From positions 1 to 57,700 of the forward strand of contig WAOT01000035.1 in assembly GCA_015521115.1 (NCBI GenBank): DNA of 57,700 nt, read 5' to 3'. Source of the DNA: Desulfurococcales archaeon (lineage in GTDB: Archaea; Thermoproteota; Thermoprotei_A; Sulfolobales; Acidilobaceae). Of the stretch, positions 12,037 through 57,700 are shown one piece after another; positions within the stretch are counted from its first letter, which is position 1, and each line of letters starts with the position of its first letter. The notes beneath the pieces were generated by a model that saw only the letters and a list, made by a program, of their open reading frames with translations, had not been told where the DNA came from and did no database searches. Both the position numbers and the translations under genes were made by a program.

Positions 12037-13497
12037 TTAGTATGACTTTGAGTATCTCATCCACGTGATAGCCTTTCTTCCGCAGACCGGACAGACCTCC
12101 CCCTCAGCCTTTTCGAAAGGCCATGGAGTACCCATGGCCTCAGCCCCTAGCTCCTCCTCGAGTTTGAGAGCACACTCCTCCCTCCCACACCAGGGAACCT
12201 CGACCACTCCCCTCCTATTCTCTACCCACTCTTTAGCCTCTTCTAGGTCTGCTGTCCTCTTTATCCTCTCCCGGAGGTATTTCCAGGCCCTTTCATATAG
12301 GTTCTGATAGATCTCGTCGAACAGCCTCCTGACCTCTACCACGACGTTTTCAGCCGGTATAGTCCTCTTCTCGAGAGTGTCTCTCCTGTGTATTGTGAGT
12401 ACTCCCTCCCTAGCCTCCTTTGCCCCTATCTCTATCCTAACGGGTACACCTCTCAGCTCCCAGTAGTAGAATTTAGCTCCCGGCCTCATCTCCTCCCTCT
12501 CATCTACCTTAACCCTAATACCTGCAGTCTCTAACGCCCTCCTCACCTGCTCGACAAGCTCTTTGACCAGCTTCATGTCCTCCTCGTCCTTAGCTGGTAT
12601 AGGTACTATAACCACCTGTATCGGAGCAACATTGGGTGGTAGGACGAGGCCCCTATCATCGCCGTGGAGGGATATCACGGTGGCAACTACCCTATCACTT
12701 ATACCATAGCTAGTCTGCCACGGGTGATCCAGGCTCTCATCAGCTAACTGTATGCGGAAGTCGAACGCCTTCGTGAAGTTCTGTCCAAGGTTGTGGACAG
12801 TCCCGATCTGGAGCTTCCTCCCATCCGGCATTACGGTGTCGAATGCTATCGTGTAGAGAGCACCAGCGAACTTGTCCCACTCGGGCCTCCTCGAGATCAC
12901 ATAGGGTATCGCAAGCCTATCAAAGAACTCCTTATAAGCCTCGACCGCCTCCAGAACCTGCCTCTCAGCGTCTTCAAAATTACTGTGAACAGTGTGGGCC
13001 TCCTTGAACGTGGTTACCTCCCTGAGCCGGATCATAGGTCTTGTAGCCTTCGTCTCATACCTGAATATGCTCACAACCTGGTAGTACTTCTTGGGAAGCT
13101 GTTTATAGCTCTTAATCCAGAAGGTCTCCATGTACGTTATGCTAGTCTCACTCGTTGGCCTAAGGGCTAGTTTAACGTCTAGAGGCCTCCTACCGCCGTG
13201 AGTTACCCAATAGACCTCTGCCTCGAAGCCCTTTACATGCTCGCTCTCCCTTCTCAGGAGGTCTTCGGGTATTAGAAGGGGGAAGAGGACTTCCTCATGG
13301 CCTAGGCGGTCGAGGATCTCCCTCATGAGGCCAATTATCTTCTTTCTTAACTGGAAGCCGTATGGCATCCACACTCCCATACCCTTAACAGGGTACCTCC
13401 CATAATCGTAAACTTCTGCCTCACCGATAACCCAGTCGAACCATCTTGGATAGTTTTCACTCCACTTTTTCCTTTGGGGTTCAGCCACTCCCACCAC
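12037..13497 (-). CDS. proS: Prolyl-tRNA synthetase, archaeal type
   Basis: This encodes up to 486 aa. It charges tRNA-Pro with proline. Class II motifs are visible: motif 2 ([13 protein letters not shown], about 160) and motif 3-like [14 protein letters not shown] (about 280). An anticodon-binding domain follows, then the archaeal/eukaryal-type C-terminal zinc domain ([16 protein letters not shown]) ending in a Tyr, as in this subfamily. No bacterial editing domain is present, as expected for the type. The frame begins with GTG at 13497, and GTG codons at 13494 and 13488 are also available; the one at 13488 sits best behind GGTGGTGG. Confidence 0.96.
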
Positions 13498-13580
13498 CCA
13501 TAACTGCCGCTAGTGGAGGTGGATGCTCCCCTACAATAAAGTTGAGGGTGTGGAGGTTTAGGAATAGGTTAGTGGCCCCG

Positions 13581-13937
13581 TTAGAGGACGAAGATTATCA
13601 CTAGGGCCACGATTAGCCCGTAGATCGCAATTCCCTCTCCCAGGGCCACGTAGAGCAGGGCCGTACCCGAGATCTCCCTGTTCTCGGCAACAGCACTGAC
13701 AGCGGCGGCGCCTGCAACACCTACAGCGTATCCACCGCCTATTCCCGCCAGGCCTACTGCGATGGCGCTCCCAATTGCCTTAGCGTAAATGTTGCTAGCG
13801 CCACCGCCCATTCCGCCCTGCTCCTGGGCACTAGCTAGGACTGAGGCGGTCGCTAGCGCGAAGGTCACTGCCAACACGGCTGCAATGATGGACAGAATCC
13901 TGAACCTCTTGTCCGCCCAGAGCACTCTCAGCATCAT
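13581..13937 (-). CDS. atpK: A/V-type ATP synthase proteolipid subunit K (c-ring)
   Basis: This 118-aa protein is one c-subunit hairpin. A signal-like hydrophobic N-terminus (about residues 12-37) precedes a linker (QEQGGMGGGA). Two transmembrane helices follow: a Gly/Ala-rich helix (AIGSAIAVGLAGIGGGYAVGVAGAAA) and a second one with the proton-binding Glu (VALGEGIAIYGLIVALVIIF). Subunits of this type form the rotor ring of the membrane H+ or Na+ channel. Other subunits are not adjacent, so this is an isolated atpK, as in several crenarchaea. It is divergent from dcd; CCTTTAATTG (minus strand, about 13979-13988) is its likely TATA. Confidence 0.93.
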   Translation of the reverse strand: MMLRVLWADKRFRILSIIAAVLAVTFALATASVLASAQEQGGMGGGASNIYAKAIGSAIAVGLAGIGGGYAVGVAGAAAVSAVAENREISGTALLYVALGEGIAIYGLIVALVIIFVL

Positions 13938-14017
13938 AGGCTACATCACCGCCCTAAACGTGGCGCCCCAGCCGACAATTAAAGGTTTTCCGCGGGATCC
14001 GCTAAGGTGACCGTCAA

Positions 14018-14032
14018 CCCCATATAATGGGG
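14018..14032 (+). promoter_or_regulatory. TATA element inside a 15-bp inverted repeat, upstream of dcd
   Basis: CCCCAT-ATA-ATGGGG is a perfect inverted repeat whose centre is the TATA-like CATATAAT. It lies about 31 bp before the dcd start codon, so it would set the start of a very short leader. A protein binding the repeat would block TBP. Confidence 0.5.
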
Positions 14033-14062
14033 TAACAGGCTACTCAGACCTACCCGGGGGAG

Positions 14063-14647
14063 GTGTCGCCAGAGTTGATCCTAAGCGACTACGAGATAAA
14101 GCTGCTCTTAAAGGCGGGAGTCCTCCACATTGAGCCACTAGACGAGGACATAATCAGAGAGAACGGCCTCGACCTCAGGCTGGGAAGGGAATACTGTGTT
14201 ATGAAGGAGACGTATACCGTGTTAGACCCAAGGGTCACGCCGGTTAAAGAGGAGTTCTACGAGTGTGGTGTGGCGGAGGACGGGATAATTATCCCCCCTA
14301 AGAGGCATGTGCTTCTACATACACTAGAATACATAAGGCTCCCACCCTTCGTGGCGGCACTTGTCAACCTGAGGAGTACTTGGGCGAGAACAGGGATCTA
14401 CATACCTGCTACCGTTGTTGACGCGGGCTTCGAGGGACAACTCACCATAGAGATAATCGGGAGCAGCTTCCCAGTCAAGCTATATCCGGGGGAGAGGTTC
14501 CTCCACCTTGTCCTAGTAAAGATGGGGCACCCATCTGAGAAGCCCTACTCGGGAACATATAAAGGTCAGAGAGGGGTGAGACTTCCCAAATTCTTCGGGG
14601 TGAACACGGGTGGGAATAGTGGTGGAGCTCCCTCAGAAAAGCTGTGA
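14063..14647 (+). CDS. dcd: dCTP deaminase
   Basis: This 194-aa protein converts dCTP to dUTP (or, if bifunctional, onward to dUMP) for thymidylate synthesis. The trimeric dUTPase-fold signature is clear: NLRSTWARTGIYIPATVVDAGFEGQLTIEIIG (about 100-133), with the deaminase Glu in FEGQLT. Further along, PGERFLHLVLVKM and YSGTYKGQRGV form the C-terminal lid region. The GTG start sits within GGGGGAGGTG. The last 38 bases overlap the aromatic lyase frame, suggesting co-transcription with it. Confidence 0.93.
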   Translation: MSPELILSDYEIKLLLKAGVLHIEPLDEDIIRENGLDLRLGREYCVMKETYTVLDPRVTPVKEEFYECGVAEDGIIIPPKRHVLLHTLEYIRLPPFVAALVNLRSTWARTGIYIPATVVDAGFEGQLTIEIIGSSFPVKLYPGERFLHLVLVKMGHPSEKPYSGTYKGQRGVRLPKFFGVNTGGNSGGAPSEKL

Positions 14648-16046
14648 CACCCTAGCCCGAGACGCTCTCGAGATCATCCGGTTCCCCGTAGAGGTAAGGC
14701 TAAGCAGTGACGTGATGCGGAGGCTCGAGGCCTCTAGGAGGAGATTACTGGAGGAGGCCAGGAAAAGGACGATATACGGCTACCACACAAGGTTTGGGGA
14801 GCTAGTCGGCGAGTCAGCGGGGAGAGGTGAGAAGTGGGAGGAGATAGTTGTAGAAGAACACAGCGTCACGACGGGGCCTGGAGTGGCACCGCCCGGACTG
14901 GTTAGGCTTTTCCTGCTATTACGCCTCAACCAGCTCCTCCAGATGCCTGCACCAGTGAGACCTGTAGTAGCCGATAGACTTGCTAGCGCCCTTAGACTAG
15001 ATATCCTACCACTCATTCTCCCTCACGGGAGCGTGGGAGCTAGTGGAGACTTAGCCCCCTCGGCCCAAGCTGTGAGATGCCTATTCTACGGCCGTGGGGA
15101 GGCTTATTATGGCGGTGCGAGGGTTCCGTGTAGTGAAGCGCTGGAAAAGGCTGGGCTCAAATACCCCTTACCACTGGAAAAGGCTGAGGCTCTAATGCTG
15201 ATCAATAACACAGCCTGGAGCACTGCCCTCTGCTTAGCGGCCCATTCAGTCCTCCGCAGGTTAATCGATGAGGCGGTCAACCTGCTTGCCAGGACAGTCT
15301 CTATTACAGGAGCGAACCGGGAACACTACCACCCCGGGGTTCTGAGGGCTAAGAGGTGCCCCATGGGAGAGAAAATAGCCCTCCACCTCGAAGGCTACGC
15401 ATCTCACGAGCCCAGGAACCTTCAGTCACCCTACAGTATACGATGCATACCCCAGGTCGTGGGGGCAACCCTCAGACTCGTTGAATTCGCCCGCCAGCTC
15501 CTCATAGAAGAGGCGTGCGCCTCAACAGAGAATCCAGTTGTAGTCGAGGACAGGGTCTTCCATGCGTGCAACTTCCACAGTATAAAGGTTGCATATGCCT
15601 GTCAGACAATGGCGACAGCGCTCGGCTACCTTTCAGCACTTCTAGAGCGTGTCGGCGCCCAACTGCTTAGAGGTAAGATTACAGGCCTTCCCGAGCACCT
15701 TGCGGGCCAGAATAGCAGCGTTGGCGCAATGATCCTCCACTACACCATGGCGGCACATAGTGCTAGGGTTAGGCAGTTATCCTCTCCGACACTCACCTAC
15801 ACGACACCCACAAGCGGTCTCCAGGAGGATGTGGTGCCAATGACACCAGAGGAGGGGGTCAAAGTTATCGAGCAACTAAGACATACCGCCCCCCTCCTAG
15901 CAGCGTTGAAGGTCATCTTAGACAGGGCAGACTCTGTTAGAGGAGGAGATGCGAGGCCGCTAGTAGGCGTCCAGGAACTCCTCAGGGCTGCTGAGGAGGA
16001 GATAGTGGAAGCCTCTGGGCTCGACCTACTTAATGGACTCCAATAG
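14610..16046 (+). CDS. Aromatic amino-acid ammonia-lyase family protein (HutH-like)
   Basis: This encodes up to 478 aa; starts GTG 14610, 14619 or 14622. It belongs to the lyase/aminomutase family that uses an autocatalytic MIO cofactor made from Ala-Ser-Gly (here GASGDLAPS, about residue 143). Other family residues are visible: YGYHTRFG (catalytic Tyr loop), EHSVTTGPG, LINNTAW (Asn), PYSIRCIPQVVG (Tyr/Arg), NFHS, and LQEDVVPM (Glu). The QDPYS motif of true histidine lyases is QSPYS here. HutU, HutI and HutF partners are absent, so histidine degradation is not assured; phenylalanine, tyrosine or histidine lyase or aminomutase activity are all possible. The 3' end overlaps the convergent gene by 21 bases. 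Confidence 0.8.
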   Translation: MGIVVELPQKSCDTLARDALEIIRFPVEVRLSSDVMRRLEASRRRLLEEARKRTIYGYHTRFGELVGESAGRGEKWEEIVVEEHSVTTGPGVAPPGLVRLFLLLRLNQLLQMPAPVRPVVADRLASALRLDILPLILPHGSVGASGDLAPSAQAVRCLFYGRGEAYYGGARVPCSEALEKAGLKYPLPLEKAEALMLINNTAWSTALCLAAHSVLRRLIDEAVNLLARTVSITGANREHYHPGVLRAKRCPMGEKIALHLEGYASHEPRNLQSPYSIRCIPQVVGATLRLVEFARQLLIEEACASTENPVVVEDRVFHACNFHSIKVAYACQTMATALGYLSALLERVGAQLLRGKITGLPEHLAGQNSSVGAMILHYTMAAHSARVRQLSSPTLTYTTPTSGLQEDVVPMTPEEGVKVIEQLRHTAPLLAALKVILDRADSVRGGDARPLVGVQELLRAAEEEIVEASGLDLLNGLQ

Positions 16047-16706
16047 TTTTACCACCAGCCCGCCAACCTCACCATGGAGAAACTTCCTGGGAACCCTCTT
16101 TCCAAGGTACTCGCGGGGTAGTGGGTCGGAGGCATACATTGCCTCACTAATGACGTCACCAAATAGGGCTGGCGGTAGAATTGCGATAGCACGCACCTGA
16201 CCCTTACTAATGTCCTCCAGGTTAGTGACCACTGTGAAGGCGGCCCTCCCCATCGAGGCCCTCGTCACCTTAAGCCTCTCAGTCCCCTTCAGAGGTTCGA
16301 TCCTTGTCACCTCAACCCCGACCACATCAACGGCAAACTCAGGGTAGTTCCTGCTCCCTAGCCTTAACCTGAGGGGGAGGCCGAGGAGTATGCTAAGTGC
16401 CCACCTGATCTCAGCTAAGGCAAACTGCCTTTTCACGTCGAGCTTCGGAACCACTTGCGGGATGAGTAGCCTCCTCAGACCGCCGGCCAGGGATACAATG
16501 TTATTCATACTCTCCGATTCTATTAGCATCTCGGGTGGGAGGAAACTGTAGCGGAGCCTCTTCACCTCCCTCCTTAGTGCCTCTAGCGTTTCAAGGGCTT
16601 TGGACTTGTTCAAGGGCCAAGGCATTCCCCACTGTCTAACCCTCCTGGACAAGACTTCAACAGCTAGCTCGGCCATCTTAAGCCTAAAGTCCTCAGCCGT
16701 GTTCAC
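16026..16706 (-). CDS. Protein with C-terminal tRNA-binding (EMAPII/MetRS-beta-like) OB domain
   Basis: This encodes 226 aa. Residues about 1-115 are helical and basic and match no family I recognise. Residues about 125-225 resemble the OB-fold tRNA-binding domain found in MetRS C-termini, Arc1p and p43: VVGVEVTRIEPLKGTERLKVTRASMG, TVVTNLEDISKGQVRAIAILPPALFGDVISEAMYAS. It could be a free-standing tRNA-binding or synthetase-associating protein. It converges on the lyase gene with a 21-bp overlap, and is divergent from the polynucleotide kinase, itself an RNA-processing enzyme. Confidence 0.65.
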   Translation of the reverse strand: MNTAEDFRLKMAELAVEVLSRRVRQWGMPWPLNKSKALETLEALRREVKRLRYSFLPPEMLIESESMNNIVSLAGGLRRLLIPQVVPKLDVKRQFALAEIRWALSILLGLPLRLRLGSRNYPEFAVDVVGVEVTRIEPLKGTERLKVTRASMGRAAFTVVTNLEDISKGQVRAIAILPPALFGDVISEAMYASDPLPREYLGKRVPRKFLHGEVGGLVVKLLESIK

Positions 16707-16769
16707 ATCTAGACACCGATGAGATTATCCTATCCAGTCCTAGAAAAGATAAGTGTGGTGGAGTAGGGC

Positions 16770-18017
16770 GTGGCGAGGTTAATCTTAGACCTGGCAGGCG
16801 GCGAGGGCATTAGGATAGTAGGGCCTGCTACCCTGAAGGTTGAATCAGGTCTAGCCCTACTCCTAGGAGCCGAGCTAGGCCCGGGGGCCCGAATAGAAGT
16901 CCCTAGGGATAGGAGCTACTATGTTATGGCGGTTGAACCGTCAACAATATTACTATCTCTAGGCGAGGATGGGAGGCTCGAGCACGCCTCACCAGGAGAA
17001 GAGCCCCTCAAGGAATGGGTGGGGCATGTCGACGAGGCCCTGGATAGCTGCGGGATACCTTGTAAAGCAGTTGTCATCGGGCCAGTCGACGCTGGAAAGA
17101 CAAGCGTCTCAGCACTCATCTCAAACAGGGCCCTACTCCGCGGGCTAAAGCCACAAATTATTGACGGAGACATAGGCCAGGCAGATATTGGGCCGCCAGG
17201 TTTTGTGAGCAGTAGCATCCCCCAATGGTATGTGCTCTGGCTCAGGAGCTTGGAACCGGATAAGATGGTGTTCGTAGGCCACGTTGAGCCACAGTATGTC
17301 GAAGCAAGGATCCTCTACGGCCTGATGAGATTACTACTCTGGGGGGAAAGGCGAGGCGCGCATGTAACAGTTATTGATACCGATGGCTGGGTTGAGGGAT
17401 GGCATGCTATGGAGTATAAGCTCAATATCCTAAGAGCGGTCAACGTTGATCTAGTAGTAACAGTGGGTGACAAGCAACTATACAAGTTCCTATCAAGGAG
17501 GTGGCCAGCCACCCACATATACCTCCCAAAACCGGCGAGGCTCTTGGCAAGGGATACTGCAGATAGGAGGAGGCTAAGGAAGGAGAACTATAGGAGGTTC
17601 CTCCACCAGGGTGTTGAGAGGGATATCGACCTAAACGAAACCCCCATTGTAAACGCGTGCATAGAGCCTAGCACGTTGGGGACGGGATCTATTCTCGTAC
17701 TCAAATACCCCGGAGGGGTCTGCGCATACTTTGACAGTGAGTCACCCCCAGACCCCCAGCAGGGAAGGGCGATCGCACAGAAAGAGGGTGTCAAGGAGGC
17801 GCTCATAATCTACAAGGGAGGAATGAGAGGTGTCCTAGTAGGCCTCGCAGACCAGGAAGGCTGGGATCACCCAGGGATAGTTACCGACGTCAACCTCAGC
17901 CTTGGTAGGCTCCGGGTCAAGACACCCTACAGGGGGGAGATAAGATACATAGTTGCCGGGAGGCTGAGGTTGACTGAAGAGTATGAGGATCTCGGCCAGA
18001 GGAGGATCTGGATCTAG
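16770..18017 (+). CDS. Polynucleotide 5'-kinase, Clp1/GRC3 family
   Basis: This encodes 415 aa. An N-terminal beta domain (residues 1-85) precedes the kinase core with P-loop GPVDAGKTS (about 104-112), then IIDGDIGQADIGPPG (the lid/metal region typical of Clp1/Grc3) and VIDTDGW. A C-terminal beta domain follows (about 330-415). Archaeal members phosphorylate 5'-OH ends of RNA or DNA, which fits RNA repair or tRNA-intron processing. The start is GTG. It is transcribed alone and ends just before the convergent Nudix gene. Confidence 0.88.
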   Translation: MARLILDLAGGEGIRIVGPATLKVESGLALLLGAELGPGARIEVPRDRSYYVMAVEPSTILLSLGEDGRLEHASPGEEPLKEWVGHVDEALDSCGIPCKAVVIGPVDAGKTSVSALISNRALLRGLKPQIIDGDIGQADIGPPGFVSSSIPQWYVLWLRSLEPDKMVFVGHVEPQYVEARILYGLMRLLLWGERRGAHVTVIDTDGWVEGWHAMEYKLNILRAVNVDLVVTVGDKQLYKFLSRRWPATHIYLPKPARLLARDTADRRRLRKENYRRFLHQGVERDIDLNETPIVNACIEPSTLGTGSILVLKYPGGVCAYFDSESPPDPQQGRAIAQKEGVKEALIIYKGGMRGVLVGLADQEGWDHPGIVTDVNLSLGRLRVKTPYRGEIRYIVAGRLRLTEEYEDLGQRRIWI

Positions 18018-54301: not shown

Positions 54302-55171
54302 TTAGGTTCTACCTCCCTCCCCCACAACCTTCTCCACTCCCTCGAGGATCTCGGGGACTACTCTAACCTCCTTAATACTCCCCTTCGCCCTGCTAATGTA
54401 GTAACCGTTTATTGGCGGCACATCCTTGTAGTCTCTCCCATGGGCGAACTTAACATAGTAGTAGTGGAGGTTGAATACCCTGTTATGAGTCGGATCAATG
54501 GGAACCCAGCCTGTCCCCGGCCAATACGCCTCGACCCATGCATGTGTCTCCCCAGGTGTGTCCGTGAGTGCCCCGCTAACGTACCTGGCAGGCACACCTA
54601 GGGCCCTGAGGAGGCCTATGAGGAGGTGTGCTTTATCCTGGCATACTCCACGGCCTATTTCCACGACCTCGTGTGCCTTAGTGTTAACACTAGTGTATCC
54701 CCTCTCATACACGATCTCCCGGTACACCCAGTCCGTTAGCTTGAAGAGCACATCCCTAAGGCTCCTCGTGGATCCAACGATCGAGCGGGCGAGGTCTTCT
54801 AGCTTAGAGGGGTCAATTAGAGGGCTTGGAAGAAGGAATAGGGCGGCTATGGGATCATCCTCAACACCCTCTAGTGGCAACCTCAGATCCTCTTGTGGGA
54901 TTAGCTTGTACTCCCCTCTAAGCCTAACGAGAGACACTGCACGGAAAGATACCCTATTATGTACCTGCTTTATGGTTACCCTGGCGGCGGGGTTACCATA
55001 TCTATCACGGTAGTAGATGACACGTCCAGGTGGGTCGCTCTCCAACCGGTATTCTAAGGGCTCCTGCCAGGTCTCTTCGCGTGGGAACACTTTAAGCTCG
55101 TTATCGTTGACCAGCACCCTGTCACTATACTCGTATATGGCTGTGTACGTTATCCTCACAGTTACAGCCAT
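54302..55171 (-). CDS. Transglutaminase-like protein
   Basis: This encodes about 289 aa. The Cys-His-Asp set is intact: GRGVCQDKAHLLIGLLRALGVPARYVSG, ETHAWVEAYWPGTGWVPIDPTHN. An N-terminal beta domain (about residues 1-115) precedes it, as in the bacterial-type transglutaminase-like family. It could act as protease or amide-forming enzyme. ATG 55171 is the best start; the frame opens at 55216. It lies beside Alpha-E and ATP-grasp genes, a conserved association. Confidence 0.85.
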   Translation of the reverse strand: MAVTVRITYTAIYEYSDRVLVNDNELKVFPREETWQEPLEYRLESDPPGRVIYYRDRYGNPAARVTIKQVHNRVSFRAVSLVRLRGEYKLIPQEDLRLPLEGVEDDPIAALFLLPSPLIDPSKLEDLARSIVGSTRSLRDVLFKLTDWVYREIVYERGYTSVNTKAHEVVEIGRGVCQDKAHLLIGLLRALGVPARYVSGALTDTPGETHAWVEAYWPGTGWVPIDPTHNRVFNLHYYYVKFAHGRDYKDVPPINGYYISRAKGSIKEVRVVPEILEGVEKVVGEGGRT

Positions 55172-55408
55172 ATTATCACGCACCAGACATTGAGGGCCTC
55201 TAGTACTTGGCTTCACTCCACCGTACTCTAATTGTCTGTGTGCAATTGGGCTTTATAGGAGTATAGCATGTAATACAGTATTTATGTAATAATATATGTT
55301 TTTAGCCTAGAAATAAAACTTAGTATAATGAGGATTATATGGTAGTATATACCTGGATACAAGTCCCCCCGACAACAACGTACCACATGAATCGAGAGCG
55401 TGATCGAA

Positions 55409-56062
55409 ATGGATAGAGGTATATTTGGGATAGCCGTTGTAGCGGTGCTAGTAGCGGCTTTAGGCGTTGGTGCACTCGCCTATAACGGGAACATAGGAAG
55501 CCCCGGAGCTGACGGGACATATAGCCATGATTATAGGCAAGGCGGCAGAATGTGGGGTATGATGAACAACGGAGGCCATGGCCCCTATAACGGTGGAGAA
55601 GGACACGACGATGACATGCCCCACATGATGTGTGGAGATCACGACGAGGAATACGACTATGACAATGACTACGGCAACTATAGTGGGATGACATGGGGAG
55701 GCGGCCCTATGATGGGTGGCATGATGATGGGTATGATGAACGGGGAGTACTGTTACGGTAACATGCCCAACATGCCCTGGCTCAATACTACTGAGGTTAA
55801 CGGCACAATAGTCTATGTTGACCCTAACCTATACATAGTCGCTCTACAGACCGACGACGGCAACCTCACGCTAAAGCTACTCCGCATGTATGTTGACCTG
55901 GAGAATGGCTACATGGTCTACGGCCCCTGGCTAACAAACACGTTACAGGTCGGAGACCAGGTAACAGTGGTTGTGCCCGCGTACGCTAACATGCCTGTTA
56001 TACCCATCCTCGGTATAACAGTGGGAGGAGACACCTACATGGTGCCCCCTCTCGCAGGCTAA
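55409..56062 (+). CDS. Secreted His/Asp/Met-rich, metal-binding-like protein
   Basis: This encodes about 217 aa. An N-terminal membrane/signal helix (GIFGIAVVAVLVAALGVGALAYN) precedes two biased stretches: His/Asp/Glu/Tyr-rich (GGHGPYNGGEGHDDDMPHMMCGDHDEEYDYD) and Met/Gly-rich (PMMGGMMMGMMNG). The C-terminal 90 residues form a small beta domain (VNGTIVYVDPNLYIVALQTDDGNLTLKLL). Met and His clusters suit copper binding, so metal storage or sensing is possible; no family is recognised. ATG 55409 follows a GTG at 55400 in frame. It lies between the transglutaminase and Alpha-E genes. Confidence 0.6.
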   Translation: MDRGIFGIAVVAVLVAALGVGALAYNGNIGSPGADGTYSHDYRQGGRMWGMMNNGGHGPYNGGEGHDDDMPHMMCGDHDEEYDYDNDYGNYSGMTWGGGPMMGGMMMGMMNGEYCYGNMPNMPWLNTTEVNGTIVYVDPNLYIVALQTDDGNLTLKLLRMYVDLENGYMVYGPWLTNTLQVGDQVTVVVPAYANMPVIPILGITVGGDTYMVPPLAG

Positions 56063-56095
56063 CCCCACTTTTCCTCATTAATTTTATTTTATAGT
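56063..56095 (+). terminator. T-rich terminator after the His/Met-rich gene
   Basis: CTTTTCCTC followed by ATTTTATTTTATAG directly follows the stop codon, typical of archaeal T-run termination. Confidence 0.4.
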
Positions 56096-56207
56096 AGGCT
56101 CCGGATTCCCCTGGGAAACCTATTGGTGAGCGTTGGAAGATAAAACCCTGCCCTCACCCTCGAGATCGCCCTAGAGGCAGTAGTTAGTGTTAGGGGATGG
56201 GTGAAGG

Positions 56208-56684
56208 TTGGGGGAGATACTTGTCCCTAGTATGCTCTACAGACTGTACTGGACTGGGAGGTATATTGAGAGGATAGACCTCCTGGTCAGGAGCCTTCTA
56301 GCGGCTGTCGGCAGGGGGGTGGATGAATCCAGGCTGCAGGCCCTCGCATCTAACTTAGGTGTCGAGTACCGGGGAGCAGTGGATTTCCTATGCAGCCTCC
56401 TCTACGATGAGTCCAACCCCTCCAGCATTCTCCACGCAGCAAAGATGATAAGGATGAACATGCATGGCCTCGGAGCAACTAGAGCTCTAAGGGAGGCTAA
56501 CCTCCTCGTGATAGAAGCCGAGGATAGGATAGACTGCAATAATTTCGAAGAAGTGAGGAGGCACCTAGAGAACCTCCTATACGCTGTTAACAAGCTGGGC
56601 AAGGTTATAGAGGAGGACATGGTGACACCCCCAACCCCTCCAGAGGATGTCCTAAGGGAGCAGCTCCTCCACCAACAGCAGTAA
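56208..56684 (+). CDS. Alpha-E domain protein (half-length)
   Basis: This 158-aa helical protein begins with LYRLYWTGRYIERIDLLVRSLLAA and later has IRMNMHGLGATRALREANLLVIEAEDR, resembling the Alpha-E (DUF403) domain. Usual members are about 300 aa, so this is a short version. Alpha-E proteins occur with permuted ATP-grasp enzymes and transglutaminases. The start is TTG 56208 or ATG 56232. The next gene begins 16 bases after its stop. Confidence 0.7.
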   Translation: MGEILVPSMLYRLYWTGRYIERIDLLVRSLLAAVGRGVDESRLQALASNLGVEYRGAVDFLCSLLYDESNPSSILHAAKMIRMNMHGLGATRALREANLLVIEAEDRIDCNNFEEVRRHLENLLYAVNKLGKVIEEDMVTPPTPPEDVLREQLLHQQQ

Positions 56685-56699
56685 TGGGGGTATAATCAG

Positions 56700-57700
56700 T
56701 TGACGGGGGGGATCCTGAGCTGGAGGAGTATCCACATTAATTATCCTGACAGGTACAATGAGGTTATAGACGAGGATCTCAAGCCCAGACCAGAGTATGA
56801 GGCGTTCTTTGAAAACCTCATAAACATGGGGACACAGAAGTTCTCAGAAGAGGTGAGGAACGCCTCAATTATAGCGTTCCTAGAGGGTTTCACGTTCAAC
56901 ATAGAACCGGGCCAGTACAGGCCGATCCCCATGGACTTCATACCCCGAATAGTGAGGAGGAAAGCGTTTAACCACATAGCAGTGGGACTTAAACAGAGAG
57001 CCATAGCGTTGAACAAGCTCCTCCAGGACATCTACAGCGGTGAGAAAACAATAGTACCGGACGAGGTGATATATGGCTCCAAGTACTTCTACCCCGACCT
57101 GGTAGGCCTGATGCCTAGACACGGCATTTTCATCCACGTCTATGGAGCAGACCTCCTCTTCGACGGGACGGAGTTCAAGATAATAGAAGATAACCTCAGA
57201 GTCCCGAGCGGAGTAGCCTACCAGCTGAAAATCCGGGAGCTCGGGGGGAGATTCCTCCCACAGCTCAGGGAAGGCTACAGGATCGCAGACTATAGGCCAT
57301 GGGAGCACCTCAAGAAGGCGATGAGAGACGCATCATGGGCTAGAGACCCATTCATGGTTCTCCTAAGCGACGGCCCATACGATAGCGCCTACTTCGAGCA
57401 CAGGTACCTCGCAAACCTCCTCGGCATCCCCTTAGTGGAGGGGAGCGACCTGAGGGTGGATGAGAGGGGCTACGTCGTCCTAAGGCTCCCAGGTGAGGGC
57501 GAGGTTCAGGTAGACGTGATCTATAGGAGGATAGAGGATCTAGACATATTCGTCCCGGGCCTATCCAAAGCGTATGCCGACGGTAAAGTAGCGCTCGTAA
57601 ACGCTTGGGGCACCGGAGTGGCTGACGATAAACTGGTGTACCACTACATACCGCAGGTCATTAGAGAGTATCTAGGAGAGGATCCAATTATCCCCCAGCC
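56700..57700 (+). CDS. Circularly permuted ATP-grasp protein (partial, runs off the window)
   Basis: The frame is open from TTG 56700 to the right edge (at least 333 codons). Recognisable parts are LKQRAIALNKLLQDIYSGEKTIVPDEVI, IIEDNLRVPSGVAYQLKIRE and NAWGTGVADDKLVYHYIPQVIREYLGED, the pattern of COG2308-type permuted ATP-grasp enzymes. These join a carboxylate to an amine using ATP. It directly follows the Alpha-E gene, as in the known pairing. GGGGG upstream could be the ribosome site. Confidence 0.85.
   Translation, partial: MTGGILSWRSIHINYPDRYNEVIDEDLKPRPEYEAFFENLINMGTQKFSEEVRNASIIAFLEGFTFNIEPGQYRPIPMDFIPRIVRRKAFNHIAVGLKQRAIALNKLLQDIYSGEKTIVPDEVIYGSKYFYPDLVGLMPRHGIFIHVYGADLLFDGTEFKIIEDNLRVPSGVAYQLKIRELGGRFLPQLREGYRIADYRPWEHLKKAMRDASWARDPFMVLLSDGPYDSAYFEHRYLANLLGIPLVEGSDLRVDERGYVVLRLPGEGEVQVDVIYRRIEDLDIFVPGLSKAYADGKVALVNAWGTGVADDKLVYHYIPQVIREYLGEDPIIPQ

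Follow-up and report, generated by a model that had tools for sequence, protein, structure and literature searches.

An archaeal cassette of a one-unit Alpha-E, an ATP-grasp and a transglutaminase, with a recurrent glutamine-rich C-terminal tail

Introduction

A bacterial operon family containing the Alpha-E protein was described by Iyer et al. (2009); as that work is relayed in two later papers, amide chemistry was proposed for it, with an external product or substrate (PMC5666114, PMC6376114). The occurrence of the system in archaea has already been described as sparse (PMC5666114). A COG2308 ATP-grasp turns over ATP on its own, releasing phosphate, and pull-downs with the Yersinia operon proteins gave no specific complexes with Anbu (PMC6376114). 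In a Burkholderia ntrC mutant, the ATP-grasp, Alpha-E, and transglutaminase are down 6- to 9-fold (PMC5491218).

The archaeal cassette described here contains the same three families as the bacterial operon (with or without Anbu), again in tight linkage, with an ATP-grasp (AG) related to the solved structure 3n6x and a transglutaminase (TG) related to 3isr. In bacteria, Alpha-E (AE) has two units and the gene order is AG-AE-TG, whereas, in archaea, AE has one unit and the order is TG-AE-AG or AG-TG-AE. Since the 2009 proposal, no substrate is known to have been established for these widespread genes. By analogy, the cassette may also be likened to tagging by Pup, PafA, and Dop, since both would combine a C-terminal glutamine with an ATP-dependent amide-forming enzyme. 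However, PafA and Dop are glutamine-synthetase-like and not ATP-grasp enzymes, and AE folds into a bundle, unlike the small disordered tag Pup. Both the family and the amide chemistry proposed for it were already known; the single-unit AE and the distribution of tails reported below are apparently new, no prior report of either having been found in the open-license literature searched.

The archaeal locus

The window (the whole stretch of 57,700 nucleotides that was analyzed) is one entire contig (G000:C35). The locus is an archaeal Alpha-E/circularly permuted ATP-grasp/transglutaminase cassette with a one-unit Alpha-E, and its four genes all lie where the first-pass annotation had placed them:

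54302..55216, minus strand: TG, divergent transglutaminase(-like) protein, 304 aa (Pfam, alignment, solved relative)
55400..56062, plus strand: HM, Met/His-rich protein, predicted to be anchored or secreted (AF2, OB-fold matches, composition, unlinked relatives)
56208..56684, plus strand: AE, single-unit Alpha-E, 158 aa, C-terminal ...REQLLHQQQ (Pfam, AF2, hhalign against bacterial halves)
56640..56681, plus strand: Gln-rich C-terminal tail of AE, with the HQQQ end in mixed codons (CAC CAA CAG CAG)
56700..57700, plus strand: AG, circularly permuted ATP-grasp, first 333 of 469 aa (Pfam, contig join, 3n6x)
L005:11664-12221 on contig C52, minus strand: remainder of AG

In TG, Pfam finds Transglut_core (9.3e-24) and Bact_transglu_N (6.4e-13). 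The triad Cys192-His225-Asp241 is invariant in an alignment with six archaeal relatives, and the nearest solved relative is 3isr (E 2e-26). The part of AG present in the window matches CP_ATPgrasp_2 (Pfam scan, E 1.6e-72). The contig end at 57700 falls within AG, and contig C52 of the same genome carries on with an exact 151-bp overlap, which restores an intact protein of 469 aa. The extension to the right suggested in the first-pass annotation thus gives a full-length ATP-grasp, aligned end to end (residues 20-468) with 3n6x, a solved protein of the COG2308 type. On C52, the genes downstream from AG are mre11-rad50-nurA-herA (names from reading the proteins and from gene order), so the right side is without further genes of the system.

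An assembly or contamination artifact was considered and rejected. The HMGS gene beside TG is 84-85% identical to those of two genomes of the same genus, AG is unbroken across the join, and the GC and GC3 of the cluster fit the window; what does not fit is that Mre11, Rad50, and NurA (L005:4575-11537) are just 30-34% identical to those of the same-genus genome G002 (HerA is 60% identical). Base composition gives no sign of a recent transfer of the cluster.

A one-unit Alpha-E

AE scores 40.1 bits with the Pfam Alpha-E profile (cut-off 20.8), and the columns of the GRYxER motif are invariant or almost so in the AE alignment. With hhalign, the two halves of bacterial Alpha-E match each other (99.6%, E 1.4e-23). 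The short archaeal AE matches each of them, with 98.5% (E 1.6e-14) for the N half and 98.3% (E 1.3e-13) for the C half. These matches make the bacterial protein a tandem repeat, of which the Thermoproteota form has one unit. The first-pass annotation had called the Alpha-E half-length; the measurement is right (158 aa), but the protein is no oddity, since the linked Alpha-E in Thermoproteota is 129-181 aa in every copy examined. A truncated Alpha-E is ruled out on the same ground. The one-unit form is claimed for the Thermoproteota examined and not for all archaea, as an archaeal MAG contig outside that phylum (L122) has a full-length, bacterial-type Alpha-E.

The AF2 model of AE is a helical bundle (pLDDT 90.6). 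Foldseek returned no significant fold match for it (best E 0.25), and assorted helical bundles align with VIA Z up to 12.3, a level that common helix arrangements also reach. If the first residues are set aside, confidence in the model is lowest at the C-terminal tail (pLDDT 74-76 vs. 90+).

Linkage in relatives

Two sets were surveyed, 229 genomes of the class and 400 genomes of Nitrososphaeria. Alpha-E matches occur in 17 of the 229: the window's own genome, 15 Sulfolobaceae (family f11, in the same order as the window's genome, the family name being inferred from relatives), and a spurious one in G186 (below the cut-off, in an ORF that reads as mevalonate kinase-like). All 15 Sulfolobaceae genomes with Alpha-E have AG-TG-AE closely packed. 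In Nitrososphaeria, AG matches are rare (6/400, one of the six weak) and five clusters are found, with TG-AE-AG in four Nitrosopumilaceae and AG-TG-AE in G590, from another family. A search with phmmer for Anbu (Paracoccus Anbu against the window, C52, and the archaeal loci) found none at E<=1. The archaeal version of the Alpha-E/COG2308 ATP-grasp/transglutaminase system, as anticipated from the window, is borne out by three linked families and by a complete AG aligned to 3n6x. Of the four genes that were to be looked for together in archaea, AG, TG, and AE are indeed linked in these 20 clusters; HM is absent from every one (0/15 in Sulfolobaceae, 0/5 in Nitrososphaeria).

In the tree, the window's AG falls with those of Nitrosopumilaceae (support 100/98), and a long branch parts the Thermoproteota AG from bacteria; the position of G590 is unsure. 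The same-genus genomes G001-G004 have no match to AG, AE, or HM. In G002 and G004, a radical-SAM gene lies upstream of HMGS, and two TldD/PmbA-like genes, recognized by eye, come after it. These absences and the different neighbors of HMGS mark the cluster as inserted or rearranged in this species.

The Met/His-rich neighbor

HM has no match in Pfam or NCBIfam. Its AF2 model begins with a hydrophobic helix, continues in a disordered linker rich in Met, His, and Gly, and ends in a C-terminal OB-fold domain (pLDDT ~97); residues 27-127 contain 16 Met, 5 His, and 24 Gly. CusF and SilF, the periplasmic Cu/Ag chaperones, are among the top Foldseek matches and share with HM an OB fold, Met/His-rich composition, and secretion. 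CusF (2vb2) aligns with VIA Z 8.0 and an rmsd of 1.9 over 63 residues, but other OB folds do at least as well (PriB, Z 9.3, rmsd 2.1 over 70), and there is no sequence match between HM and the solved CusF. A putative metal-related role is plausible.

HM-like genes, with the C-terminal domain as the common part, occur in 24 of the 229 class genomes (23 besides the window's). Only the window's own genome has both HM and Alpha-E; the other 23 are without AE or AG. A winged-helix gene (HTH_45) and a membrane-protein gene are nearby in 16-17 of the 20 HM loci inspected (L065-L084), where the former is of ~92 aa, the latter of ~190 aa, and a second secreted protein of ~180 aa is at times present. 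This neighborhood is possibly a cluster for metal or redox homeostasis in the class. In the genome of the window, the winged-helix and membrane-protein partners sit on contig C56 (L193:11324-12175).

In the first-pass annotation, HM was seen as a substrate or product-handling partner of the system, perhaps a modified metal-binding peptide, and its place here, with TG on one side and AE on the other, together with its Met/His/Gly-rich sequence, speaks for such a role. The geometry holds, but a 145-bp gap with a T-rich stretch follows the 3' end of HM, against 18 bp between AE and AG. By the test given in the first-pass annotation itself, the link of HM to the system fails, as none of the HM relatives found elsewhere lies near AE, TG, or AG. 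In addition, the prediction for HM is anchoring or export, whereas no signal segment is seen by eye in AE and AG, and HM has its own gene neighborhood elsewhere, two members of which are on C56 here. With the linkage survey ruling HM out as a system partner, that reading has become very improbable; HM is probably an independent neighbor.

Glutamine-rich tails

The AE of the window ends in ...LHQQQ, those of Nitrosopumilaceae in ...RHQQQ(QQ), and that of G590 in ...VQQE. In Sulfolobaceae, the tails of AE are Q/E-rich with a core Q(E/Q)E. Although the AE of the window and of Nitrosopumilus are only ~42% identical, both have the HQQQ end, in different codons. A rule for such tails (at least 2 Q in the last 6 residues or at least 3 in the last 10) was framed after the data had been seen. 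Under this strict rule, 11/20 archaeal AE pass, with 0/20 for TG and 0/20 for AG; in Sulfolobaceae, 9/15 AE fail.

In bacterial operons with complete AE and TG, the tail is on exactly one of the two in 43/50 (30 on TG, 13 on AE), on both in 1, and on neither in 6. These counts come from a re-scan with bacterial profiles; the first scan gave 42/49, for which the Fisher p of 7e-7, calculated without correction for relatedness, overstates the evidence for exclusion because well-supported branches of the tree force at least 4-5 changes of tail bearer. The exclusivity is built on few independent changes. Among controls under the same rule, 7/343 neighbor genes (2%) and 2/80 AG pass. The presence of Anbu gives no clear rule for which protein bears the tail.

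A small follow-up set of 12 plasmid loci across genera, picked by the author and mostly from Proteobacteria, contains 9 complete operons: the tail is on TG in 4 (one marginal), near-terminal on AE in 1, on AG in 1, and absent in 3. TG tails are clear in Aeromonas, Sinorhizobium, and Rhizobium and marginal in Caballeronia; AE tails are clear in Acidithiobacillus and Azospirillum and near-terminal in Halomonas. In Tsukamurella, the Gln-rich end is on AG, and not on AE or TG (L212:2185-4011; DQQQQQAREEVRDARP). No tail is found in Paenibacillus, Paracoccus, Agrobacterium, or the AG-AE fusion of Sphingomonas. One of 55 neighbor genes passes the rule. The follow-up set agrees in part with the tail pattern; since Paenibacillus, Paracoccus, and some other operons are without it, the tail is not indispensable. 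In Sphingomonas, AG and AE are fused into one protein (L219:2432-4915).

Possible roles of the tail

Enzymes of the transglutaminase superfamily attack the side-chain amides of glutamine via a cysteine, and ATP-grasp enzymes are ATP-dependent carboxylate-amine ligases that form amides. The tail may then be an internal substrate for TG and AG. AE and TG would form a complex presenting a flexible C-terminal Gln tail (on AE here, on TG in many bacteria). TG would deamidate or transamidate the glutamines of the tail, and AG would make an amide bond at either the Glu so produced or the C-terminal carboxylate. The cassette could in this way act as a carrier, loading and unloading an amine or an amino acid on its own tail, possibly in relation to nitrogen limitation, as in Burkholderia. 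Such a self-contained carrier mechanism is suggested by the sequences and is held tentatively, somewhat short of an even chance. The broader proposal, that in bacteria and archaea alike the cassette has its own covalent substrate, a C-terminal Gln tail on AE or TG which TG deamidates or transamidates and AG ligates again, in a self-loading amide carrier or tagging device of which the archaeal one-unit AE is a minimal form, is unlikely as a whole.

The degree of belief in an internal substrate is set by another reading, which accounts almost equally well for the same sequences and which we regard as possible with the balance somewhat against it: the cassette would make or modify an external peptide, protein, or small molecule, and the Gln tail would be a docking or assembly element joining AE, TG, and AG. 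The bearer switches between AE and TG, as a tether could, the tail is, the first residues aside, less confident than the rest of a confident AE model, and the turnover of ATP by a COG2308 ATP-grasp alone (PMC6376114) agrees with such a scheme. Yet one would more often expect a docking motif to conserve a pattern of sequence, whereas the tails share mainly their Gln content, and glutamine is the very residue class on which transglutaminases act. The variable length and sequence of the tails, and their loss from several operons, would also suit C-terminal ends of low complexity without function. This is improbable, given tails in 88% of complete operons vs. 2% of neighbor genes, mixed CAA/CAG codons that do not point to simple slippage, an HQQQ retained between the 42%-identical proteins, and the scarcity of tails on two proteins of one operon. 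A recurrent Gln tail on one of the cassette's own proteins is a concrete substrate candidate, testable by mass spectrometry; the archaeal version, compact with its one-unit Alpha-E and lack of Anbu, is tractable for reconstitution.

Other observations

The L122 contig, labeled Methanomethylophilaceae, has an AG of bacterial type together with a two-unit Alpha-E of 325 aa and falls inside bacteria in the tree; mis-binning or transfer may be the cause. In some Nitrosopumilaceae, Pfam identifies close to the cluster a gamma-glutamyltranspeptidase, an N-formylglutamate amidohydrolase, and a fusion of a D-Ala-D-Ala-ligase-like ATP-grasp with an M20 peptidase (L192:3-2206, 12967-15138, 15654-17057; L097:15341-17506), the fusion in two loci and the others in one.
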